Shown here: piece by piece, positions 16,598 through 26,208 of the stretch
Layout: each line of letters begins with the position of its first letter
Numbering within the stretch: the stretch's first letter is position 1
Origin: Aeromonas tecta
GTDB taxonomy: Bacteria > Pseudomonadota > Gammaproteobacteria > Enterobacterales > Aeromonadaceae
Assembly (NCBI RefSeq): GCF_000820185.1
Contig: NZ_CDCA01000028.1
Span: 1-64,000 of the forward strand
DNA length: 64,000 nucleotides
Direction of reading: 5' to 3'
Made by a program: the position numbers and the translations under genes
Notes under the pieces: generated by a model
The model's input: the letters and a program-made list of their open reading frames with translations, nothing else
Told to the model about the DNA's origin: nothing
The model's database searches: none

Positions 16598-16885
16598 ATG
16601 CAAATTAACCTGACCGGACACCATGTCGAGATTACCGAAGCTCTGCGTGATTATGTGAATAACAAATTTGCCAAACTCGAGCGTCACTTTGACCATATCA
16701 ACAACGTACACGTGGTGTTGAGCGTCGAAAAACTGAACCAGATTGCCGAAGCCAAGCTGCACGTCAGCGGGGGTGAGGTGTTCGCCAATTCGGAGCATAC
16801 CGACATGTATGCTGCGATTGATACCCTGCTGGATAAACTGGATCGGCAGATCATCAAGCACAAAGATAAGTTAAATCAAAAATAA
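16598..16885 (+). CDS. hpf: HPF, short ribosome hibernation-promoting factor
   Basis: 95 residues, the short gammaproteobacterial form without the C-terminal dimerisation domain. Contains the N-terminal MQINLTGHHVEITEALRDYV and YAAIDTLLDKLDRQI blocks. Promotes 100S ribosome formation in stationary phase with RMF. Twenty bases after rpoN. Confidence 0.95.
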   Translation: MQINLTGHHVEITEALRDYVNNKFAKLERHFDHINNVHVVLSVEKLNQIAEAKLHVSGGEVFANSEHTDMYAAIDTLLDKLDRQIIKHKDKLNQK

Positions 16886-16887
16886 CT

Positions 16888-17334
16888 ATGCAACTTGAAC
16901 ACATACTGAGTCGGGACTGCACCAAGAGTGCGGTCCCTTGTACCAGCAAGAAACGCGCCCTCGAGATCATCAGTGAATTGGCCGCAGAGCGTCTGGGCAC
17001 CTCCCGTCAGGTGCTGTTCGAAAGCCTGCTGGCGCGGGAAAAAATGGGCAGTACCGGGATCGGTGCCGGTATTGCCATTCCCCACGGTCGGATCGACGAT
17101 GCCTTTGTGCCGACCGCCGTACTGATGACCTTCTCCGAACCTATTCCGTTCGATTCCATCGACAATCAACCGGTTGACCTGCTCTTTGCATTGCTGGTGC
17201 CGGAAAGCGAGTGCAAGCAGCACCTCAAGACCCTTTCCCTGATGGCATCCAAGCTGGGTGACAAGGCCGTCTGCCGCCAGTTGCGCCAGGCGACCAGCGA
17301 CGAAGAACTCTACCAGATCATGACCTCGGCCTGA
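16888..17334 (+). CDS. ptsN: PtsN, EIIA-Ntr of the nitrogen PTS
   Basis: 148-residue EIIA domain of the fructose/mannitol type. H66 in AIPHGRID is the phosphorylated histidine. Receives phosphate from PtsP through NPr and regulates potassium transport and other targets rather than sugar uptake. Two bases after hpf. Confidence 0.95.
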   Translation: MQLEHILSRDCTKSAVPCTSKKRALEIISELAAERLGTSRQVLFESLLAREKMGSTGIGAGIAIPHGRIDDAFVPTAVLMTFSEPIPFDSIDNQPVDLLFALLVPESECKQHLKTLSLMASKLGDKAVCRQLRQATSDEELYQIMTSA

Positions 17335-17374
17335 TGCCGGTCATGATACAGCCACGTTGGCGTGAGGGGACAAG

Positions 17375-18241
17375 ATGCAGTTAATAGTGGTAAGTGGCCG
17401 CTCGGGCTCCGGTAAAACCGTGGCCCTGAGGGTACTGGAGGATCTGGGGTATTACTGTGTGGATAACCTGCCGGTCAATCTGCTGCCCCAGCTGATCGTC
17501 TCGGTAGAGAGTCAGTATGACAAGCTAGCCGTCAGCATCGACGTGCGCAACCTGCCCGCCCAGTCTGACAAGCTGGACAACCTGCTGGCCCAGGTGCGCA
17601 ACGAGGGGCGGGTCGAGTTTTCCAGTTTCTTCTTCGATGCCGATAACTCCACCCTGCTCAAACGCTATGGCGAGAGCCGCCGATTGCATCCCCTGTCGCG
17701 CAACAAGCTGTCATTGGATGAGGCGATCCGGGAGGAGACCCACCTGTTGGCGCCGCTCTCTTCCACCGCCGATCTGCGCATCGACACCACCAGTCTCAGC
17801 ATCCACGACCTGAGTGAGCTCATCAAGACGCGCGTGCTCGGCAAGAAGGAGAACGAGCTGGTGCTGGTATTCGAGTCGTTCGGCTTCAAGTACGGGATCC
17901 CCAAGGATGCCGACTTCGTATTCGATGCCCGCTTCCTGCCCAACCCGCACTGGATCCCCGAGCTCAAGCCCTTTACTGGGCAGGACGAGCCGGTGGCCAA
18001 CTACCTCTCTGCCCAGCCTGACGTCATGCTGTTCACCCAGCAGATCGAGAACATGCTGGCGACCTGGTTGCCCCAGTTGGAGCGCAACAATCGCAGCTAT
18101 GTGACGGTCGGCATCGGCTGCACCGGTGGTCAGCATCGCTCGGTGTTTATCGCCGAACGGCTGGCCAGTGCGTTTCGCCTGCTCGGCAAGAACGTACAGA
18201 TCCGCCACCGCACCCTGGACAAGCGCTCACCGCAATCCTGA
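17375..18241 (+). CDS. rapZ: RapZ, RNase adapter protein
   Basis: 288 residues. N-terminal P-loop GRSGSGKT (8-15) and C-terminal RNA-binding domain with GCTGGQHRSVF. In E. coli it presents the sRNA GlmZ to RNase E and so controls glucosamine-6-phosphate synthase. Conserved between ptsN and ptsO. Confidence 0.95.
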   Translation: MQLIVVSGRSGSGKTVALRVLEDLGYYCVDNLPVNLLPQLIVSVESQYDKLAVSIDVRNLPAQSDKLDNLLAQVRNEGRVEFSSFFFDADNSTLLKRYGESRRLHPLSRNKLSLDEAIREETHLLAPLSSTADLRIDTTSLSIHDLSELIKTRVLGKKENELVLVFESFGFKYGIPKDADFVFDARFLPNPHWIPELKPFTGQDEPVANYLSAQPDVMLFTQQIENMLATWLPQLERNNRSYVTVGIGCTGGQHRSVFIAERLASAFRLLGKNVQIRHRTLDKRSPQS

Positions 18242-18257
18242 CTGATAGGACGCTACG

Positions 18258-18530
18258 ATGACTGTTTCCGCTTCGGTAGAAGTCAAAAACAAGCTGGGCA
18301 TTCATGCCCGGCCGGCCATGATGTTGTTCGAACTGGTACAGGGCTTCGATGCCCATGTCCTGCTGCGCAATGAGGATGGTGTCGAGGCCGATGCGGACAG
18401 TGTGATCGGTCTGCTGATGCTGGACTCGGCTCAGGGCAAGCAGGTGGAAGTGCAAGTTGAGGGGCCGGAAGAGGAAGAGGCACTGGCCGCCGTGGTGGCG
18501 CTGTTCACCTCGGGCTTCAACGAGGAGTAG
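18258..18530 (+). CDS. ptsO: PtsO, phosphocarrier NPr
   Basis: 90-residue HPr-like protein. H16 in GIHARPA is the phosphorylated residue. Carries phosphate from PtsP to PtsN. Last gene of the rpoN run; faces the accessory regulator gene with only 18 bases between stop codons and no terminator hairpin seen there. Confidence 0.95.
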
Positions 18531-18548: not shown

Positions 18549-20453
18549 TCAGGAGCCGGAGCGTGCCAGCGCCTTGAAGCTGGCGAGATCCTGACAAGCC
18601 AGCAGATTCTTGCTGGCTTTTTCGTTCATCAGCGCCAGGAACAGATCGTAGAGTCCCATCGCCTCTTCATAGTCGGCCTTGGCGATGGCCAGCACGAAGA
18701 TGAGGGTCGCGGTCTCGCCATTGCCCCAGTCGATGCCCTGTGGCGCCAGCACCGTATAGACCAGGGTGCGGCGCGCCAGCAGGCCGAGGGAGTGGGGCAG
18801 GGCAATGCCATCTCCCAGCATGGTGGAGACGATGCGCTCCCGCTCCTGCAGTGATCCCCTGAATTCCTCCTCTACCAGACCCTCCGACTCCAGCTGATCG
18901 CAGATCCGGGCAAACAGCTGGTCCTGGCTGAGCGGCTCGCTGACCACCATGAAATGATCGGCATCGAAGTATTTGTCGAGCAGGTAGGGCCGCGTGCGAT
19001 CGATCAGCACCAGCTTGCCGAGCTGTTCCAGCTGGTACTGGGTCGGAAAGGGTGCGACCTGTACCACTGGGGTGTTCTTCTCGCTCACCTTGACCGTGCT
19101 GATGACAAAGTCCTGCGCTATCCGGTCCAGTCCCTCGTAATCTCGCACCGACTCCAGGCTGGTCAGCTGCAACTGGGGGTATTCCCGCTTGATGCGCGCC
19201 TCCAGCACCCGGAAGGTGGCGTTGCCGGCATCGCACAGCAGCAGCGCCTGGGGAGGACGGCTGTAGCCGATGTCGTAGTGACGCTCCAGCCCGACTCCGA
19301 TATGGATCACCAGATAACCTATCTCGTGATGGGTCAGGTGATAGGGCGTCTGTTTGATCCACTCCGAGATGGCGGCCAGGGTGATGTCGTAGGCGAGCGG
19401 ATAGTACTGCTTGATGTGATCCGCCAGCGGATTGTGGCTGCCTATCTGGTATTTGATGCGCAGCAGCATGGCGCTGATATGGGTCAGCAGATCGGAATGC
19501 AGCTGGCTGTCGTGGCGCAGATCATAGGGGTAGTGCTGGTGGATGTAATCCAGCAGGTGCGCGACCAGCCGGGCACTCTCGGCGGCCATGACCGGGCTGA
19601 GGTGCGGAGTATCGGCGATGAGACGGGCCTGGATCTGGATGGCGAGGCAGATGACCTCGGGCTCACCCGGCGGGATCAGGGTTGGCAACTCGTCATAGAT
19701 GTCTCTGGCTACAGCCGCCAGGGGAGCGGTGAGATCGTCATGGCTGAATGCCAGCAGTTCATGCCCTGCTGCCTGGCGCAGCAGGGCGACGGCGCAGTAG
19801 ATGGTGAGTTGTTGCAGGCTCTCGTCCGCCAGTCGCAGCTGATGGTGACCGAGTTGGGCGTGAATGTGATTGCCTATCACCTCCAGTGTCTTGCTGGGGC
19901 AGAGATTCGGCAGCAGGCCCTGCAGCGGGTTGTTGCGCACCTGTTCCCGATAGAGCAGCTGGGTGAGGCAGGCCCGGATCGCCGTCTCATCCCCCAGAAT
20001 GCGCATGCCGAGCCGTGGCTTGCTGTCGATACCGAGTCCGAAATGGGCGAGTCGCTCCCTCACTTCTGCCATGTCACCCTGCAGCGCCGCCCGGCTCAGA
20101 TACCAGGTATCTGCCAGATCTTCGAGCTTGATCCCCTGCTCCGCGGTGAGCAGCAGGAGCTGCAGGTGCAGCACGCGCTCACGGCTGGTGCGGGGCAGGC
20201 CGCTCTCCTGCTCCTGCGCCGCCAGCAACTCATCAAACAGCCCCTGATTGTAGATCTTGAGCTGGTAGCCGCTACCACGCTGGTGGATCAGGTGACCGCC
20301 ATGGGTGGCAATCAGCTCATTCAGGGTCGCCACGTCGGTGCGCACCGTGCGGGTGGAGACATTCAGGCGGCGCGCCAGCTCCTCCTGTGGCAGAGGTTCG
20401 GCATGGAGCAGGGTCAGCAGTTGATGGAGTCTGGGGTGGGGCAGCTTGAGCAT
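18549..20453 (-). CDS. PTS-regulated transcriptional regulator (HTH, two PRDs, EIIB-like, EIIA)
   Basis: 634 residues from the ATG giving MLKLPHPRLH. Domains: N-terminal winged HTH (about 5-55), linker, PRD1 (about 190-290), PRD2 (about 300-395, histidines near 319/325 and 375/384), an EIIB-like domain with C407 in LLLCDAGN, and a C-terminal EIIA domain with H554 in IALPHSLG. This is MtlR/LicR-type architecture, where phosphorylation by HPr and EII proteins sets DNA-binding activity. It is the last gene of the accessory minus-strand cluster, after a hairpin, and probably controls it. The upstream in-frame start would read through the hairpin region. Target and inducer are unknown. Confidence 0.85.
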   Translation of the reverse strand: MLKLPHPRLHQLLTLLHAEPLPQEELARRLNVSTRTVRTDVATLNELIATHGGHLIHQRGSGYQLKIYNQGLFDELLAAQEQESGLPRTSRERVLHLQLLLLTAEQGIKLEDLADTWYLSRAALQGDMAEVRERLAHFGLGIDSKPRLGMRILGDETAIRACLTQLLYREQVRNNPLQGLLPNLCPSKTLEVIGNHIHAQLGHHQLRLADESLQQLTIYCAVALLRQAAGHELLAFSHDDLTAPLAAVARDIYDELPTLIPPGEPEVICLAIQIQARLIADTPHLSPVMAAESARLVAHLLDYIHQHYPYDLRHDSQLHSDLLTHISAMLLRIKYQIGSHNPLADHIKQYYPLAYDITLAAISEWIKQTPYHLTHHEIGYLVIHIGVGLERHYDIGYSRPPQALLLCDAGNATFRVLEARIKREYPQLQLTSLESVRDYEGLDRIAQDFVISTVKVSEKNTPVVQVAPFPTQYQLEQLGKLVLIDRTRPYLLDKYFDADHFMVVSEPLSQDQLFARICDQLESEGLVEEEFRGSLQERERIVSTMLGDGIALPHSLGLLARRTLVYTVLAPQGIDWGNGETATLIFVLAIAKADYEEAMGLYDLFLALMNEKASKNLLACQDLASFKALARSGS

Positions 20454-20517
20454 GGGGGATATGTGACTCCTGTCGTGAGAGAAGGGATCGATGTTAACAA
20501 CTGGGTCAGCAACAAGC

Positions 20518-20550
20518 CAGGCACCGGCCAGAGGTTGGACCGGTGCCTGC
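20518..20550 (-). terminator. Hairpin between dgaF-like gene and the regulator gene
   Basis: Perfect 10-bp stem CAGGCACCGG / CCGGTGCCTG, 8 bases after the dgaF-like stop on the minus strand. The following T-run is poor, so this may be a partial terminator that lowers regulator expression relative to the enzymes. Confidence 0.65.
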
Positions 20551-20557
20551 TTTGTCG

Positions 20558-21298
20558 TCACATCAGCAGCTGTTTCACCGTCTCGAGCAGGGTACGCACA
20601 TCAGCGGGGCGGGTCTGACCGCTCGCGCTGTCGATGATGGAACTGTAGATGTGGGGGATCACCTTCTCGACCCCGGCATCCAGCGCAATGCGTACTATCT
20701 CCTCGAAGTTGTCGAGATCGATGCCACCGGTGGGCTCCAGCCAGAAACCGTGGCGGGCGCAGGCCTCGGCCACTGCCTGATACTCGTCGCGACAGGCCAG
20801 GCCACCCATGGGGAAGAACTTGACCGAGCTGCCACCCATATCTTTGAGCAGGGCGATGGCGGTATCGATGGGCACAATGCCATCGGCCTGCCCGGCACTG
20901 AGCGGGCCGGTGGAGATCTTCACCATGCCGGGGGTACCGGTGGGGGAGATGAGGCCATTCACCAGGCTGTGAGGCTGACCGAGCAGCGCCCGGCTAGCGC
21001 CGACCCCGGTGAACACCTGGTTGACGTGTTGCGGCTGCAACTGGCGCGCCAGCTCGGCCACCATGCCAGATTGCCTGGGATCGCCGGCACCCAGGCCGAT
21101 GGAGAGGGCGTTGTCGATCAGTGCCGCATACTCCCTCATGTCGGCGACGGCAGAGGGCACATCCGGATAGTTTTTGGAGAGCACACCGACCAGGACATGG
21201 CCTTCGGCGGCCTCATAAATGTCGACGGCATTCTGTTTGGATCCTGCCAGCACGTTGAGGCAGACACGGTCACGGTAGTAATTAGGAATAAGGGACAT
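20558..21298 (-). CDS. dgaF: DgaF-like 2-dehydro-3-deoxy-phosphogluconate aldolase
   Basis: 246-residue TIM-barrel aldolase of the KDGP-aldolase family associated with DgaF (EF_0839-like). K160 in SSVKFFPMGG fits the Schiff-base lysine. Expected reaction: KDGP to pyruvate and glyceraldehyde 3-phosphate, completing amino-sugar-acid breakdown after the DgaE step. Its start shares a base with the dgaE-like stop. The true substrate is not shown by sequence. Confidence 0.8.
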   Translation of the reverse strand: MSLIPNYYRDRVCLNVLAGSKQNAVDIYEAAEGHVLVGVLSKNYPDVPSAVADMREYAALIDNALSIGLGAGDPRQSGMVAELARQLQPQHVNQVFTGVGASRALLGQPHSLVNGLISPTGTPGMVKISTGPLSAGQADGIVPIDTAIALLKDMGGSSVKFFPMGGLACRDEYQAVAEACARHGFWLEPTGGIDLDNFEEIVRIALDAGVEKVIPHIYSSIIDSASGQTRPADVRTLLETVKQLLM

Positions 21299-22413
21299 CA
21301 GCGGTTCTCCGAAGCGAGTTGGGCAATGGCAGCATGGATCTGGTCGAGTTGGGCCGGGCTGACGCTGCGCACATCGATCTCGATGTGACCTTCGTTGGCC
21401 TTGTAACCACGGCAGTAGATGGCAGGATTGCCCTGTTGCAGGCGGTCCACCACCTGCACAGTGGTCATACCCAGACGCTCATGGTCGAAGGCGATGTCGG
21501 TGCGGGCGATGTCGCGTCCGGCGCTGTCCCACACCACTTGGGCCTTGACGCCCGTCAGTTGGTTGAGGCGCTCGATGAAGGAACTCATCTTGGCGACCAT
21601 GGCGGCGCCGCTCTCTTTTTCTTTGACCAGGTAGCGTTCGATGGCATGGGTCAGGCCGAGGATCCCCTCCTTGCCCACCTTCATGGCGCGGCCGATGCCG
21701 TTCGCCTGCTGTTTGACCCAGGCCACATACTGGCGCTTGCCGAGTACCAGACCGCTAGTGGGCCCTTCGATGGCCTTGGCACCGCTGTAGATGACCAGAT
21801 CCGCCCCCTGTTGGTAGTAGAGGCGCAAGTCTTCTTCCGCGGCCGCATCGACGATGAGCGGCAGCTGGTGGGTCTTGGCCACCTCGGCGGCCTGAGCTAC
21901 CGATAGAATGCTCTTCTGCACGCAGTGGTGGGATTTGATGTAGAGAATGGCGGCGGTATTGGGATTGATGGCGGCGGCCAGCTGGGCGGGGGAGCACTCG
22001 TTTGCGTAGCCTGCCTCCACTACCTTGCCGCCACCCAGATTGACCATGGTGCCTACCGGCGCCCCGAAGTTCACGTTGTGGCCCTTGGGCAGCACTATCT
22101 CGCTCGGTACCCCGTGGGCATGGGCGTGCAGTTGCTCCAGCCGATAGGCGTCACCGCGTACTATCACGGCGGCCACCGATTGAGCGATGCCGGCGCTGGC
22201 GCAAGAGACCACGACCGCATCCTCCACCTCGAGCAAGTTGGCGAGGTAGGCGCCGGTCTTGTTGACCAGATCCTTCACCTCGAAGTAGTGGCCCAGGCCG
22301 AAATTGACCGCCTCGATCACCTCGGGTTCCGGGGTAGAGACGCCGAGGATGGTCATGCGGCCGGAGGCGTTGATCACCGGCTTGAGCTGATATTTCTCAT
22401 ACACAGAAGACAT
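21298..22413 (-). CDS. dgaE: DgaE-like PLP-dependent ammonia-lyase
   Basis: 371-residue fold-type I PLP enzyme related to D-glucosaminate-6-phosphate ammonia-lyase and to the SelA-like MJ0158 group. K213 in SGAKAIEGP is the likely PLP lysine, with D189 in IVDAAAEED nearby. It would release ammonia from a 2-amino-sugar-acid phosphate to give KDGP. The ATG at 22413 has GGGAA 8 bases upstream; the in-frame ATG at 22428 lacks one. Overlaps the amidohydrolase 3' end by 17 bases. Confidence 0.8.
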   Translation of the reverse strand: MSSVYEKYQLKPVINASGRMTILGVSTPEPEVIEAVNFGLGHYFEVKDLVNKTGAYLANLLEVEDAVVVSCASAGIAQSVAAVIVRGDAYRLEQLHAHAHGVPSEIVLPKGHNVNFGAPVGTMVNLGGGKVVEAGYANECSPAQLAAAINPNTAAILYIKSHHCVQKSILSVAQAAEVAKTHQLPLIVDAAAEEDLRLYYQQGADLVIYSGAKAIEGPTSGLVLGKRQYVAWVKQQANGIGRAMKVGKEGILGLTHAIERYLVKEKESGAAMVAKMSSFIERLNQLTGVKAQVVWDSAGRDIARTDIAFDHERLGMTTVQVVDRLQQGNPAIYCRGYKANEGHIEIDVRSVSPAQLDQIHAAIAQLASENR

Positions 22414-23536
22414 GGTGCGATTTCCCATAGTGAGTCAAAACCAGGTCACCGCCCACCAGGGCGGCGAGGGGAAGCAGTTGCTGGTCACCGGCGCGAGATT
22501 GCGCCTCGGTATCCATAAACAGGGTCGGGCCGCTGGCCAATTCGAAAAGCGTCAGGTCGGCATCGGCGCCCACCTCGAGCCGTCCCTTGCCCGGTAGGCG
22601 CAGGGCATCGGCCGCCTGATGAGTGACGCAGGCGAGTACCTGTTCAAGGCTCATGCCGATGACGAAAAACTTGGACATCACATGAGCCAGGCTATAGACG
22701 GGCCCCTTGATGCGGTTCTTGCAGTAGATGTCGGAGCTGATGGTGTGGGGCAAGATGCCTTGGCGGATGGCGTGCTCCGCCACCTCGAAGCTGAAGCTGG
22801 CACCGCCGTGGCCGATGTCGAGCCGCAGGCCCCGTTGCATCGCCTCACGCACCGCTACTCTCAGTTCACCGGCTGGCGTCAGGATGCGGTTGGGTTTGCC
22901 GTTGAAGCAGTGGGTCAGCAGATCACCGTCCCCCAGCAGGGCGGCGATTTCGTCCAGATCTGGCGGGGTGTTGCCGACGTGCACCATCAGCGGCAGGCTG
23001 CCGTTATCGCGCTGGATCTGCTTGGCGATACGCAGCGGTTGCAAGCCATTCTCTCCGACTACGCTGCCACTCATGCGTGCCTTGATGCCGACGATGAACG
23101 AGGGGTGGCGGCGAATGGCCGCCTGGGCCAGCGCCGGGTCTATGTCGGCCGGATTGGCCAGCTCGTTCTGGCGCAACAGGCCGATGCGGGAGATGTTGAG
23201 CAGGGCGTGCACCCGGGTCTTGCAGCCAGCCGCCAGCCGCTGGAACGCATCCACGTCGTCGGCGCCGGTGCTACCTGCATCGATGACGGTGGTGACTCCC
23301 GCTTCCACCCCGACCTTGTCTGGCTCATCCTGATAGATGGGGGAGGCGGGATAGCAGTGGGTGTGGCCGTCGATCCAGCCGGCACTGACCCAGACCTCGC
23401 CTGCCAGAGTGAGGGTTTGCTTCGCCTCGGCCGCCGCAGGCAGCTGGCCGAGGGCCGCTATCTTGCCATCCACAATGGCGATATCGATGAGCTCACCGTT
23501 TCCCTGGCGCCCCGCTCTGATGATCATGTCGTACAT
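22397..23536 (-). CDS. Amidohydrolase/deacetylase-family metalloenzyme (EF_0837/AHA_3915 type)
   Basis: 379 residues, amidohydrolase superfamily. H58 and H60 in DGHTH bind metal, K152 in VGIKARMSGS is the candidate carboxylated bridging lysine, and further histidines occur in MVHVGN and LTHCFNG, with an aspartate in SSDIYC. Predicted to hydrolyse an N-acyl or cyclic amide bond, supplying the free amine that the DgaE-like enzyme needs. AGAGGGA precedes the chosen ATG. Substrate unknown. Confidence 0.78.
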   Translation of the reverse strand: MYDMIIRAGRQGNGELIDIAIVDGKIAALGQLPAAAEAKQTLTLAGEVWVSAGWIDGHTHCYPASPIYQDEPDKVGVEAGVTTVIDAGSTGADDVDAFQRLAAGCKTRVHALLNISRIGLLRQNELANPADIDPALAQAAIRRHPSFIVGIKARMSGSVVGENGLQPLRIAKQIQRDNGSLPLMVHVGNTPPDLDEIAALLGDGDLLTHCFNGKPNRILTPAGELRVAVREAMQRGLRLDIGHGGASFSFEVAEHAIRQGILPHTISSDIYCKNRIKGPVYSLAHVMSKFFVIGMSLEQVLACVTHQAADALRLPGKGRLEVGADADLTLFELASGPTLFMDTEAQSRAGDQQLLPLAALVGGDLVLTHYGKSHHVFCV

Positions 23537-23697
23537 GCTGATATCCCTCTTGGAACCTGCTTGCGCTCTTACTGCGAGGCCGTGATCAAGGCTCATGTGC
23601 TGCTCGGAATCCTCACGTATATCTATACGCTCCGGTTCCTGCGCTGCTCTTCACCTTGCTGACGACCTCTCGCAACAGATCGCAAACAGGTTCTTAA

Positions 23698-23716
23698 ATG
23701 CCGTCCGAGAGACGGC
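23698..23716 (-). other. Intra-operon hairpin between DUF4310 and amidohydrolase genes
   Basis: On the minus strand GCCGTC-TCTCG-GACGGC forms a 6-bp stem with a 5-base loop shortly after the DUF4310 stop, within a 186-base gap. There is no T-run; it may be an mRNA-processing or stability element that separates transporter-gene and enzyme-gene expression. Confidence 0.4.
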
Positions 23717-23722
23717 CTGTGA

Positions 23723-24373
23723 TTAAGCCAGGGCGACCGGGAAGAAGGTGCCGAGCAGCATGGCCCCCAGGATGGCACCGCCGGTGATGGGCTTGTTCCA
23801 GATGTAGAACAGCAGTGCACCCAGCAGGGAACCCAGCCCGATGGGGATGGAGGCGCCCATGGCGGAGAGGATGATCAAGGGGCCGAGGAAGCGACCCGAG
23901 CTGTTGCCAGCCCCCATCATCACATCCGCACCGTAGGTGGAGTTGCTCTGGTTGATGGTGAACTTGCGCGCCAGGATGATCACATAGCCGATGGCCAGAC
24001 CAATCCCCATGCCCGTCGCCAGCGAGGCGCCGAAGTTCTCCACCGGATAGAGGATGCCGGCCCCCAGCAGCAGGGCGGGCACACCAAGGCCGACCCCGGT
24101 CTGGATGGCGCCGCCGATATCCAGGATCCCCACCAGGGAACCCTCGATGATGCGGGCGAACAGGAAGCTGGCACCGAAGGCTGCGACCGCGCCGTAGGCA
24201 CCGGTGTCCATGCCGGCTTTCAGCATGGCGACGAAGGCCACCTCGTTGAAGGCGCCGACACCGTACAGGTAAAACATATGGGTACCGGCGAAGACCCCGG
24301 CCGACAGCAGGCCGACGAAGATGGGGAAGGACCAGTCCGCATACCAGAAGTTGTTTCTCAATTTCTCATCCAT
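23723..24373 (-). CDS. DUF4310 membrane protein (EF_0833/AHA_3914 family)
   Basis: 216 residues, glycine-rich with about six hydrophobic segments. N-terminal FWYADWSFPIFVGLLSAGVF and central GGAIQTGVGLGVPALLLGAGI are typical of this uncharacterised family. Always found with DUF4311, DUF4312 and the SFCGS protein, so probably half of a two-component permease in the inner membrane. Starts 11 bases after the DUF4311 stop. Function is inferred only from context. Confidence 0.8.
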   Translation of the reverse strand: MDEKLRNNFWYADWSFPIFVGLLSAGVFAGTHMFYLYGVGAFNEVAFVAMLKAGMDTGAYGAVAAFGASFLFARIIEGSLVGILDIGGAIQTGVGLGVPALLLGAGILYPVENFGASLATGMGIGLAIGYVIILARKFTINQSNSTYGADVMMGAGNSSGRFLGPLIILSAMGASIPIGLGSLLGALLFYIWNKPITGGAILGAMLLGTFFPVALA

Positions 24374-24384
24374 GGATTGGTCCC

Positions 24385-25161
24385 TTATTTACCGCTTATC
24401 AGGTTATGGACATTTTCCAGCCACAGGGGGATCCCCAGGTGGAAGGACTCGATCAGTTTCATGTCAAAGCCACGGAAGAATCCGCTCAACACGAACAGCA
24501 GTACGATGGCCGCCATCATCACCTTGGTGACGTGGTTCCAGCCGCTCTCTTCCACACCCTTGCCGATCAGGATGCCGAGTACCAGACCCGGTACGGCGTT
24601 GCCCATGATGAGCTGCGCCAGACCGCCGAAGATGGTGGCCCAGAAGCCGGATTTTTTGCCCGCCTCGATGGCAGCCAGCCAGAAGATCACCGGCATGACG
24701 GTGTTGACCAGCAGGTTGGCGGCAGGCACCAGCACCTTGACGGCGGTGACTTGCAGGGCGGCCGGAACGGCGGCGGCCGTGCTGTTGAGGAAGGCGACGA
24801 CGATGGCACCTATGATGCCGCCGGCGATGGCCATCTTCTTGGGATCGTGCAGGGTGCTGGTGATATCCCGGTTCTTGACCAGCAGCGCGGCCGTGGCCCA
24901 GTGCGGGATGATGCGGTGGTCCACATCCTGGGTGAAGGCACCGGCCGCGACGGTCGAGGCCCAGGCGTTGAAAAAGAAGCCAAGACCGAAGGAGAAGTGG
25001 GACGCGGGATCTCCTTCACAGGAATTGAGCTCCCCCAGGGTACGGAAGGCACCCATGCCCTGCACGGTCGGGGCGTGGAACATCCGCGCCGCACCGACCC
25101 CCACCCCGACGCCGACCAGGCCGCCGATGATCAATGATTTGAAAAGAATGATTAGAAACAT
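24385..25161 (-). CDS. DUF4311 membrane protein (EF_0832/AHA_3913 family)
   Basis: 258 residues from the ATG giving MFLIILFKSL, with about seven hydrophobic segments and a cytoplasm- or periplasm-exposed loop holding ELNSCEGDPASHF. The pattern of glycine-rich helices resembles a transporter. The upstream in-frame ATG (25215) would overlap DUF4312 and place a hydrophilic stretch before the first helix, so it was rejected; AAAGGAC precedes the chosen start. Likely partner of DUF4310. Confidence 0.8.
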   Translation of the reverse strand: MFLIILFKSLIIGGLVGVGVGVGAARMFHAPTVQGMGAFRTLGELNSCEGDPASHFSFGLGFFFNAWASTVAAGAFTQDVDHRIIPHWATAALLVKNRDITSTLHDPKKMAIAGGIIGAIVVAFLNSTAAAVPAALQVTAVKVLVPAANLLVNTVMPVIFWLAAIEAGKKSGFWATIFGGLAQLIMGNAVPGLVLGILIGKGVEESGWNHVTKVMMAAIVLLFVLSGFFRGFDMKLIESFHLGIPLWLENVHNLISGK

Positions 25162-25183
25162 CCAACATGTCCTTTTTGTGGGG

Positions 25184-25480
25184 CTACACCAGGGTGAAAG
25201 CGACCTTGTCGGCATCCAGGCTGGCGACCTTGACCGTGATCTCCAGCTGGACGCGGAATTCGCGACGTTGGCGCGGCAGGAAGAAGAACAGGAACTTCTC
25301 CACCCGGACCGATTCCTCGGCCTTGAGCACCTGCACCTCGACCGGCTCGATGCGCAGCATCACGCGCGGGTTGTCCTTGAGCAGCGTGGGCTGCACCTGG
25401 CTGAGGGCGGAGGCGAACGCCTGCTGGCGAGTCGCCCCCTTGCCATTGACGATGACCTGGGTGGTGAAGTGTTCGTTCAT
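25184..25480 (-). CDS. DUF4312 protein (EF_0831/AHA_3912 family)
   Basis: 98-residue soluble protein (begins MNEHFTTQVIV), alternating hydrophobic/charged beta-rich pattern, no signal or membrane segment. Family of unknown function, known only with the DUF4310/4311 transporter genes; probably a cytoplasmic subunit. Start overlaps the SFCGS stop (ATGA). Confidence 0.78.
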   Translation of the reverse strand: MNEHFTTQVIVNGKGATRQQAFASALSQVQPTLLKDNPRVMLRIEPVEVQVLKAEESVRVEKFLFFFLPRQRREFRVQLEITVKVASLDADKVAFTLV

Positions 25481-25845
25481 CAGACGCGACCGTGCTTCTT
25501 GGCGAAGGCTTCGATCAGCTTCTGACCCAGCTCTTCCTTGTCATTGAAGCCAAAGCCCAGCACCACGCAGCCGTCGTTGATGGCGGTGACGCCCTCTTCG
25601 ACCGAGCGCATGCCGTAGCGGCACTTGTAGCCGTACTTGGTTTGGGCGGTGATGGCGCCAGCGCCGCCGCTGCCGCAGAAGGAGATGCCAAGATCCGCCT
25701 GCTCCTTGTTCATCACATCACCGAGCTTCATGTCGGCGGCCATGCCGGGGATCACTGTCACGCTGGCACCGGCGGCTTCTGCCCCCGCACCGACTTTCTG
25801 ACCCTTGCCGAGACGATCTCCGATTACGAGTTTGATAGCTGACAT
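25480..25845 (-). CDS. SFCGS-family glycine-rich protein (EF_0830/AHA_3911 family)
   Basis: 121-residue soluble protein named for its SFCGSGGAGA motif (C57-C60 region), with a second cysteine in YKCRYG. A cysteine in a small glycine-rich loop at this place in a transporter operon recalls PTS EIIB domains, but I cannot show homology. The ATG follows the PRD-protein stop directly, with GGAG upstream. Confidence 0.78.
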   Translation of the reverse strand: MSAIKLVIGDRLGKGQKVGAGAEAAGASVTVIPGMAADMKLGDVMNKEQADLGISFCGSGGAGAITAQTKYGYKCRYGMRSVEEGVTAINDGCVVLGFGFNDKEELGQKLIEAFAKKHGRV

Positions 25846-26208
25846 TTAGATATCTCCTTTGATGACACTGAGTTCATTTTCTTTGGCCACTTCGAAGTGG
25901 ACGGATAACAGGTGGGCTTCTTCATAGGCCAGCTTGTCCAGCCAGGCGACGACCTGCTCGGCCAGTCGCAGGGAGAGCGGTGAGATCTCATCAAACAGGC
26001 TGAGGTCGACTTCCGGCAGGGATTCACCGCTGTAGGATCGCCACACCATGGCTTTGACATGGGAGGCCAGCATCTGGATCTGGACGTCATTGGGGATAAT
26101 CCCCTGCTCGCCCAGCAGCGCATGGATGCGTGCCAGGGTAAGGTCGGTCTTGCGCAGCAATGCCGGGCTATCCGGGGTCAGGGCGGTGTCATGGGTGTCG
26201 GTAGTCAA
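25846..26208 (-). CDS. Small PRD-domain protein (EF_0829/AHA_3910 family)
   Basis: 120-residue stand-alone PTS-regulation domain without a DNA-binding part. Conserved histidines occur in MLASHVKAMV and LLSVHFEVAKENE. Probably senses PTS phosphorylation state or binds the transporter or regulator. First gene of the accessory operon, so the main promoter should lie upstream in 26209-26526. Confidence 0.78.
   Translation of the reverse strand: MTTDTHDTALTPDSPALLRKTDLTLARIHALLGEQGIIPNDVQIQMLASHVKAMVWRSYSGESLPEVDLSLFDEISPLSLRLAEQVVAWLDKLAYEEAHLLSVHFEVAKENELSVIKGDI

Follow-up and report, generated by a model that had tools for sequence, protein, structure and literature searches.

A nine-gene Aeromonas tecta cassette for putative sugar-acid uptake and breakdown, with orphan membrane proteins

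Gene content and conservation

The cassette described here comprises nine neighbouring minus-strand genes of Aeromonas tecta (assembly GCF_000820185.1, contig NZ_CDCA01000028.1), found within the first 64,000 nucleotides of the contig, the whole stretch of DNA analysed and referred to below as the window. It probably serves to import, phosphorylate and break down an acetylated sugar acid, perhaps the oxidised end that certain enzymes cut off chitin, using membrane proteins that match no transporter family we could find. The genes and their family assignments by Pfam and NCBIfam are listed in Table 1.

Table 1. Coordinates and assignments of the cassette genes; starts that differ from the longest open frame were inferred from alignment with relatives
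Position	Strand	Product and families	Remarks
25846..26208	-	Stand-alone PRD protein (TIGR03582)	First gene of the operon; two His conserved in 4 of 4 copies aligned
25480..25845	-	SFCGS protein (PF14272/TIGR03577)	Predicted RpiB/LacAB fold; Cys57
25184..25480	-	DUF4312 small protein (PF14189/TIGR03578)	Predicted beta-alpha-beta-beta, dodecin-like arrangement (weak)
24385..25161	-	DUF4311 hydrophobic, presumably membrane protein (PF14188/TIGR03580)	Open frame begins 25215
23723..24373	-	DUF4310 hydrophobic, presumably membrane protein (PF14187/TIGR03579)	
22397..23536	-	Amidohydrolase/deacetylase, EF_0837 type (TIGR03583)	Open frame begins 23596
21298..22428	-	DgaE-family PLP ammonia lyase (subfamily TIGR01437)	H167, H168, K218 and R309/R340/R354 correspond to DGL H162, H163, K213 and R301/R332/R346
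20558..21298	-	KDGP/KDPG aldolase, DgaF-like (PF07071, TIGR03581, NF047796)	Passes equivalog NF047796 (384.6 bits against a cut-off of 300)
18549..20453	-	HTH-PRD-(EIIB-like Cys407)-EIIA (His554) regulator	Open frame begins 20561; residues numbered from the 20453 start

A preliminary description, made from the sequence alone, had reported nine contiguous minus-strand genes for two novel membrane proteins, two small soluble proteins, a stand-alone PRD, an amidohydrolase, DgaE-like and DgaF-like enzymes and a PRD/EIIB/EIIA regulator, and this observation is confirmed. Seven of the proteins pass the NCBIfam models named for the EF_/AHA_ cassette (TIGR03577, 03578, 03579, 03580, 03581, 03582 and 03583), the lyase passes the subfamily model TIGR01437 but lies below the DgaE equivalog cut-off (394.7 of 600 bits), and the regulator passes no NCBIfam cut-off. 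The three inferred starts in Table 1 are small corrections, each more likely than the longest-ORF start, and the EIIB part of the regulator is not a Pfam hit but rests on a Cys in a conserved stretch. The grouping is not due to chance: of the best 80 of 435 confirmed relatives from one scan, 74 carry all nine genes by tblastn, and in 74 of those 74 the first eight are in the same order (PRD, SFCGS, DUF4312, DUF4311, DUF4310, deacetylase, lyase, aldolase). None of 5426 E. coli genomes holds most of the Leclercia copy; 1421 have a small match, which spans 46-82 query bases in eight of them.

Enzymes

The catalytic residues that were checked are kept. The DGL catalytic His and Lys and three phosphate Arg are present in the window lyase and in 74 of 74 usable DgaE copies from the 80 loci, whereas Bartonella DgaE has Ala at the His162 position. 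The His and Arg residues are those named for DGL (PMC9529869); K213 is the PLP lysine. The three arginines argue for a 6-phosphate substrate, although R301 and R332 are also found in the alphaproteobacterial ABC-linked relatives, so that only R346, which is Cys in 3 of 3 of these, discriminates, and the P. megaterium lyase, which has a kinase beside it, keeps all three. No aldolase hit was found in the DNA retrieved for the ABC-linked relatives.

SFCGS, DUF4312 and the membrane proteins

SFCGS is predicted to have the ribose-5-phosphate isomerase B (RpiB) fold. In a comparison of the predicted model with known structures, the top 22 rows are all RpiB/LacAB entries (Z 12.3-8.7, 112-117 residues, rmsd 2.4-3.3), with the best unrelated row for this part at Z 7.7, and Foldseek alone gave one match at E <= 0.001, RpiB 6mu0. 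The claim rests on this predicted fold, as the sequence evidence is weak: RpiB is the first of two PDB profile hits (E 0.5); the Pfam score is 14.3 bits against a cut-off of 24.7, with DUF1685, another family of unknown function, scoring better (18.8 bits); and hhalign against RpiB gave only E 0.002, probability 13, while an unrelated pair, DUF4312 against RpiB, gave E 0.0055, probability 7 over 10 columns. In RpiB (E. coli numbering), Cys66 and His99 are catalytic and Arg133/137 bind phosphate. The cysteine is kept as Cys57, invariant in 61 of 61 aligned sequences and also in the six left out of that alignment, but the His99 position is N in 48, A in 8, Q in 4 and E in 1 of the 61 sequences, and SFCGS ends before the arginine region (alignment with 2vvr, an H99N mutant). 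A comparison of SFCGS with fructose-type EIIB returned nothing, although that set consisted mostly of whole fusion proteins and was a poor control. DUF4312 matched the dodecin 2cz8 at Z 7.9 over 67 residues, under the tool's reliability mark, with no Pfam dodecin hit and nothing by hhalign.

DUF4310 and DUF4311 gave no EII family in hmmscan at E<=1. By hhalign, run against EIIC-Sor and EIID-AGA only and with shallow DUF alignments (Neff about 1.7) that do not exclude a very remote link, the probability was 0.4-2.1; a short similarity to EIID (23 columns, 39% identity) is not significant, and a mannose-family EIIC/EIID identity was therefore rejected. An AlphaFold model of DUF4311-DUF4310 was unusable (pLDDT 51), and its Foldseek matches were disregarded. 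Of five sub-threshold matches of DUF4311 in other genomes, the two that were read fall on a DjlA-like glycine-rich helix and were judged to be chance; a signal also rang in the E. coli control.

Genomic context

Profiles for PfkB kinase, MupG, GntP, mannose- and lactose-type EIIC, EIID and fructose-type IIB, together with single IIA/IIB sequences, hit none of the 80 loci (flanks up to 10 kb, 12 loci shorter). Pfam searches with one member of each of the 30 flank-gene clusters seen in 3 or more loci likewise showed no sugar kinase and no sugar EII. A lactonase (PF10282) is linked in 32 of 80 loci. Elsewhere the enzymes occur in other company: in L. paracasei, a mannose-type IIA/B/C/D precedes DgaE and the aldolase, with no PfkB hit; in P. 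megaterium, the deacetylase, DgaE and aldolase accompany a KDG-kinase-like kinase and GntP, a gluconate:H+ symporter; and in C. difficile, a lactose-type PTS and MupG accompany the three enzymes and a kinase. E. faecalis has the SFCGS/DUF module together with a kinase and a normal EIIC, and its regulator lacks the EIIA site. Two near-identical Bartonella plasmids, which count as one event, carry the cassette with an HPr-EI fusion with intact sites right after the regulator, and no other EII is annotated or hit by these profiles on the HY406 plasmid. One 55% relative, the only one inspected, sits beside ptsG.

LPMO genes co-occur with the cassette in Aeromonas, being present in 27 of 28 carriers against 4 of 9 non-carriers, but in only 1 of 7 carriers outside the genus against 11 of 36 non-carriers; LPMO as a universal partner was therefore rejected. 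N-acetyl-D-glucosaminate (GlcNAc1A), the C1-oxidised end of LPMO-cut chitin, is deacetylated, deaminated and enters as KDG-6-P in Pseudoalteromonas (PMC9537276). A 2024 study sought this route in A. rivuli DSM 22539, which expresses an LPMO on chitin, found no close OngB/OngC and saw only traces of GlcNAc1A (PMC11653859); we find that this strain has all nine genes. Literature searches found no paper on DUF4310/4311/4312 or SFCGS, and none on PTS with GlcNAc1A or on chitobionic acid with E. faecalis; a search for N-acetylglucosaminate led nowhere, and searches with EF_ locus names and cog3964 gave Tn-seq remarks on EF0838/EF0839 (PMC7701990).

Interpretation

The preliminary description proposed deacylation, deamination and aldol cleavage of an N-acylated 2-amino-sugar acid, possibly as the 6-phosphate, to pyruvate and triose phosphate, with the four DUF/SFCGS families as the uptake system, and its interpretation is partly supported. 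The enzyme reading holds, and the residues favour the 6-phosphate it had left as possible; the uptake role is supported by context only. Two points are changed: SFCGS, there a small soluble protein, is predicted to have the RpiB/LacAB fold, and the module, whose mechanism was left open, probably phosphorylates as it imports. The likely natural source of the substrate in C1-oxidised chitin and the HPr-EI of Bartonella were not part of that description.

Our best explanation, held tentatively, is a PTS-linked uptake and catabolic system for an N-acetylated 2-amino-2-deoxy-D-gluconate, most likely GlcNAc1A, in which SFCGS, DUF4312, DUF4311 and DUF4310 stand in for a PTS permease. In this view, DUF4311 and DUF4310 would form the membrane part, and SFCGS would be the cytoplasmic phosphoryl carrier, using Cys57 on an RpiB-type fold and fed from EI/HPr through a histidine of the stand-alone PRD or of an EIIA domain, so that the substrate arrives as its 6-phosphate. 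The deacetylase would then remove acetate, the DgaE-like lyase would remove ammonia to give KDG-6-phosphate, and the aldolase would yield pyruvate and glyceraldehyde-3-phosphate, while the PRD regulator would sense the phosphorylation state; DUF4312 is probably an accessory of the membrane complex. The gene content, order, family memberships and conserved residues are shown by the analysis, and the enzyme steps are supported by family membership and residues; the substrate, the formation of a permease by DUF4310/DUF4311, the phosphorylation of SFCGS and the dependence of transport on EI and HPr are inferred. The reading draws on the enzyme residues, the absence of linked kinases and sugar EIIs in the loci searched, the exchange of contexts, the Bartonella HPr-EI, the invariant Cys57, the lactonase, the A. 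rivuli findings and the fact that PRD regulators normally answer to PTS permeases. Against it stand the lack of any sequence or fold link of DUF4310/DUF4311 to an EII, the isomerase-like rather than EIIB-like predicted fold of SFCGS, the E. faecalis arrangement, the presence of R301 and R332 in the ABC-linked relatives and of all three arginines beside a kinase in P. megaterium, the Ala at the His162 position of Bartonella DgaE, the presence of LPMO in only 1 of 7 carriers outside the genus, the mere traces of GlcNAc1A seen in the Aeromonas study, the action of OngB/OngC before phosphorylation and the possibility that HPr-EI in Bartonella serves only the regulator. Genera that carry the cassette (Vibrio, Klebsiella, Serratia) are also reported to carry ong clusters (PMC9537276) and may not need it for GlcNAc1A, which reduces our confidence.

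Almost as likely is the same mechanism with another substrate, an N-acyl 2-amino sugar acid that does not come from chitin LPMOs, for example a host- or cell-wall-derived N-acetylglucosaminate or its 2-epimer, or one with another acyl group. The scarcity of LPMO in carriers outside Aeromonas, the presence of MupG, a 6-phospho-N-acetylmuramidase family, in the C. difficile and E. faecalis versions, the gut or insect sources of some carriers and the reported ong clusters in Klebsiella and Serratia favour this, while the LPMO association within Aeromonas does not, and no other source of such an acid turned up in the papers found. Less likely, DUF4311/DUF4310 are an ordinary (ion-coupled) permease, with the acid entering unphosphorylated, being deacetylated and deaminated to KDG and then phosphorylated by an unlinked KDG kinase as in the Ong pathway, and with SFCGS and DUF4312 as accessory or regulatory proteins. 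This agrees with the failure to find EII homology, with the catabolism of GlcNAc1A before phosphorylation in Pseudoalteromonas, with the KdgK and KdgA homologues reported for the two Aeromonas strains (PMC9537276, PMC11653859) and with the symporter and kinase of P. megaterium, but all three phosphate arginines are kept in 74 of 74 lyases, no linked kinase was found in 80 of 80 loci although the aldolase needs a 6-phosphate, and the regulator is of PTS type, with HPr-EI in Bartonella. That SFCGS is a working RpiB/LacAB-type isomerase, so that an imported amino sugar (or its phosphate) is first isomerised or epimerised and the four proteins are not one transport complex, is very unlikely despite the fold match and the kept catalytic Cys, as the His99 position is never His in 61 sequences, the arginine region is missing and the deacetylase-lyase-aldolase sequence needs no isomerase.

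A further possibility, which we consider unlikely but not excluded, is that the module is a phosphotransferase permease of independent origin, in which a cysteine on a ribose-5-phosphate isomerase fold serves as the IIB phosphoryl carrier, the stand-alone PRD acts as its IIA-like donor and two orphan membrane families form the channel, giving chitin degraders such as Aeromonas a phosphorylating route for LPMO-made N-acetylglucosaminate. If true, a PTS-type permease with no detectable sequence relation to the mannose-family EII parts tested exists in many Gammaproteobacteria and in Enterococcus, and four orphan families gain a function at once. It would also answer how Aeromonas uses the oxidised sugar ends made by LPMOs, which the 2024 study left open.

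Comparison with known systems

SFCGS shares with RpiB/LacAB the predicted fold and the position of the reactive cysteine, and differs in its sub-threshold Pfam score, in the His99 position and in the absence of the C-terminal region that would carry Arg133/137. The nine-gene set of the window is a member of the NCBIfam cassette EF_0829-EF_0839/AHA_3910-3917, whose hypothetical equivalogs were already modelled with shared locus names; the model descriptions seen give no function, and the predicted RpiB fold, the context swaps and the substrate proposal are new here. The ong pathway of oxidative chitin use (OngB, OngC, KdgK, OngIT; PMC9537276) has in common deacetylation, deamination, entry as KDG-6-P and the proposed substrate GlcNAc1A; it takes up its substrate through an SSS symporter and phosphorylates last with KdgK, and neither OngIT nor KdgK is present in the window cassette. 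By family description rather than sequence comparison, OngB is a subtype V D-aminoacylase-like enzyme with Cys/His/His zinc ligands (PMC12017989), and the window deacetylase belongs to the EF_0837 family with a conserved HxH-Lys-His-His-Asp set. The dga operon (DgaABCDEF), the D-glucosaminate PTS pathway of Salmonella, likewise combines a PLP ammonia lyase and a KDG-6-P aldolase fed by a phosphorylating permease (PMC9529869), and the L. paracasei plasmid copy shows the order IIA-IIB-IIC-IID-lyase-aldolase. In the window cassette, IIA/IIB/IIC/IID are replaced by SFCGS/DUF4312/DUF4311/DUF4310, an N-deacetylase is added, the regulator is of the PRD type and the lyase falls below the DgaE equivalog cut-off.

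A block of nine minus-strand genes was found in the window (coordinates are in the table below), as the preliminary description had stated, and its observation holds. Seven of the proteins pass NCBIfam models named for the EF_0829-EF_0839/AHA_3910-3917 set, the lyase passes subfamily TIGR01437, and the ninth is an HTH-PRD-EIIA regulator. Start positions of three genes were inferred from relatives. A 12-pair GC-rich inverted repeat with a T-containing tail, a possible terminator or attenuator, lies between the aldolase gene and the likely regulator start.

Coordinates of the cassette and of associated features in the window and in related loci
Sequence	Position	Strand	Feature
Window	18549-26208	minus	Nine-gene cassette
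Window	near 20453		Regulator start, inferred from relatives
Window	near 23536		Deacetylase start, inferred from relatives
Window	near 25161		DUF4311 start, inferred from relatives
Window	20518-20549		12-pair GC-rich inverted repeat
Window	16598-18530		ptsN-rapZ-npr; the cassette ends convergently 18 bases from npr
L028	8047-10062		Bartonella plasmid, cassette with its own HPr-EI fusion
L031	15405-17420		Bartonella plasmid, cassette with its own HPr-EI fusion
L074	10710-11882		Locus titled Martelella alba, damaged copy
L035	15357-16039		A. salmonicida, regulator gene apparently split
L066	15269-16477		Enterovibrio coralii, regulator gene apparently split
L285	2513-10921		C. difficile plasmid, lactose-type PTS, MupG, deacetylase, DgaE, aldolase and kinase

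DUF4311 occurs in 29 of 61 genomes of the relatives set, including 28 of 37 in the window's own genus, and SFCGS occurs in 7 of 299 genomes drawn from the phylum. A scan of species genomes confirmed at least 435 relatives, of which the best 80, all titled Proteobacteria, were kept; the relatives at 93-99% SFCGS identity are all Aeromonas species, so the host is very probably Aeromonas. Of these 80 loci, 74 hold all nine genes by tblastn, with the first eight in one order in 74 of 74. The regulator follows, except in the six Morganella and Providencia loci of this set, where it precedes. Loci L041, L080, L097 and L103 lack genes on short contig pieces, Aliivibrio sifiae (L055) keeps only PRD, SFCGS and the regulator, and an Arsenophonus (L084) keeps only PRD and SFCGS. 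In the locus titled Martelella alba (L074), DUF4310 appears to run out of frame and DUF4311 is incomplete, and in A. salmonicida (L035) and Enterovibrio coralii (L066) the regulator gene appears split into two tblastn pieces. Plasmid records add Bartonella, Klebsiella and Enterococcus copies.

The deacetylase keeps H58, H60, K152, H186, H209 and D269, which act as metal ligands, in 69 of 69 copies of the module-linked set. The nearest PDB entries are 8wzy and 2ics, called dihydroorotase and adenine deaminase by their depositors, while the EF_0837-like model of Pfam says deacetylase. For the lyase, His162/His163 and arginines 301/332/346 of DGL, next to which the phosphate was docked, are named in PMC9529869. 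Lys213 is the PLP lysine. All six positions are conserved in 74 of 74 usable loci, while Bartonella has Ala at the His162 position. In three alphaproteobacterial ABC-transporter-linked relatives Arg346 is Cys and the other two arginines stay, whereas a Streptomyces relative and the P. megaterium copy keep all three, so one arginine discriminates, and only modestly. Alphaproteobacterial ABC-transporter clusters with RidA and a DgaE-like enzyme with Cys at the Arg346 position (loci L290, L292 and L293, with the EF_0837-type deacetylase listed in two of the three) are perhaps a route for N-acyl D-amino acids. The aldolase passes the DgaF equivalog.

The aldolase, and probably the lyase, need a 6-phosphate. 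Profile searches of all ORFs of 60 aa or more in the 80 loci (up to 10 kb on each side, 12 loci shorter) found no PfkB-type kinase, MupG, GntP, mannose- or lactose-type EIIC, EIID or fructose-type EIIB at E 1e-5, with several profiles resting on one to three sequences and glucitol, galactitol and ascorbate EII not included. Weak HPr-EI hits in 14 of these loci match the HPr domain of npr genes, and only the Bartonella records have the true HPr-EI. Pfam searches with one member of each of the 30 flank clusters found in three or more loci showed npr, ptsN, rapZ, rpoN, housekeeping genes and a lactonase but no sugar kinase or sugar EII, and ten further ORFs from three loci gave none either.

The same enzymes occur with other uptake parts: a mannose-family PTS in L. 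paracasei, without deacetylase in the listed genes and without a PfkB hit; a lactose-type PTS with MupG and kinase in C. difficile; and a GntP gluconate symporter with a KDG-kinase-like kinase in P. megaterium. The C. difficile genes lie on a plasmid (L285) and look like a route for a disaccharide that ends in an N-acetylamino sugar acid, such as chitobionate. E. faecalis has the DUF module plus EIIC, MupG and kinase, which fits two substrates but weakens the rule. The pattern suggests that the DUF module delivers a phosphorylated acid.

Two small (about 55 kb) plasmids of bat-derived Bartonella (L028 and L031) carry the whole cassette with an HPr-EI fusion, with intact phosphorylation sites, after the regulator; they are near-identical, so this is one event. 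On the HY406 plasmid, which also carries T6SS genes, no other PTS permease is annotated or hit by the profiles. A 55% relative in Caballeronia grimmiae, the only one inspected, sits beside ptsG. In the window the cassette lies beside ptsN-rapZ-npr; npr and rapZ lie within the fetched flank in 36 of 80 loci, including Serratia, Rahnella, Hafnia and others, so the site beside the nitrogen PTS genes recurs across families.

Weak NCBIfam hits of SFCGS to RpiB/LacB models and a Pfam hit to LacAB_rpiB prompted a test of its fold, although another unknown family, DUF1685, scored better in Pfam. In a PDB-wide profile search RpiB is the first of two hits, at E 0.5. The AlphaFold model (pLDDT 84.6) matches RpiB/LacAB structures in the first 22 rows (Z 12.3-8.7), with the best unrelated row for that part at Z 7.7, and the only Foldseek match below E 0.001 is an RpiB; the hhalign result is weak and its controls are close. 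Cys57 sits on the reactive cysteine of RpiB, the His99 position is never His in 61 sequences, and the protein ends before the phosphate-arginine region. We read this as a predicted isomerase fold re-used, possibly as a phosphoryl carrier. DUF4312 has a predicted dodecin-like arrangement at Z 7.9, below the reliability mark of the method.

The window DUF4311 and DUF4310 are 70-86% identical to the Bartonella, Klebsiella and Enterococcus copies, which we consider high for transporters. Invariant polar residues include H28, H54, H81, H104 and H251 in DUF4311 (numbered without the first Met, so one lower than in the protein) and H32, E44, E77, D85 and D150 in DUF4310. The searches made found no known family for these two proteins, and structure prediction gave no usable model.

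C1-oxidizing LPMOs leave GlcNAc1A on chitin, and Pseudoalteromonas deacetylates and deaminates it and enters at KDG-6-P with its ong genes (PMC9537276). The same paper reports ong clusters in Vibrio, Klebsiella and Serratia, genera that also hold this cassette, which weakens the case there. A. bestiarum and A. rivuli DSM 22539 have LPMOs expressed on chitin, but only distant or no OngB/OngC matches were found and only traces of GlcNAc1A were seen; the authors did not exclude other deacetylases and deaminases (PMC11653859). Locus L040, from A. rivuli DSM 22539, holds all nine genes, as does L033, from A. bestiarum CECT 4227. In the window's own genus LPMO_10 is found in 27 of 28 carriers and 4 of 9 non-carriers (Fisher p 0.0016, not corrected for kinship), and outside it in 1 of 7 carriers and 11 of 36 non-carriers. 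The lactonase is linked in 32 of 80 loci; in the Klebsiella copy its closest NCBIfam models are 6-phosphogluconolactonases, below cut-off. So GlcNAc1A is plausible for Aeromonas, while other carriers may scavenge it or use a different acid.

The reading of these genes in the preliminary description, as an uptake and catabolic system for an N-acylated 2-amino-sugar acid, is partly supported. Gene content, order, family membership and residue conservation were observed directly in the sequences, whereas phosphorylation by the orphan module, the carrier role of SFCGS and the identity of the substrate are inferred. We consider the three-enzyme route on a 6-phosphate likely, a PTS-type module as likely as not or slightly more so, and GlcNAc1A as the substrate about as likely as not. 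What is new here is the predicted RpiB fold of SFCGS, the argument that the orphan module phosphorylates, and the proposed link to oxidized chitin in a strain where that question is open. The families themselves were already modelled, and the enzyme logic follows that of dga.
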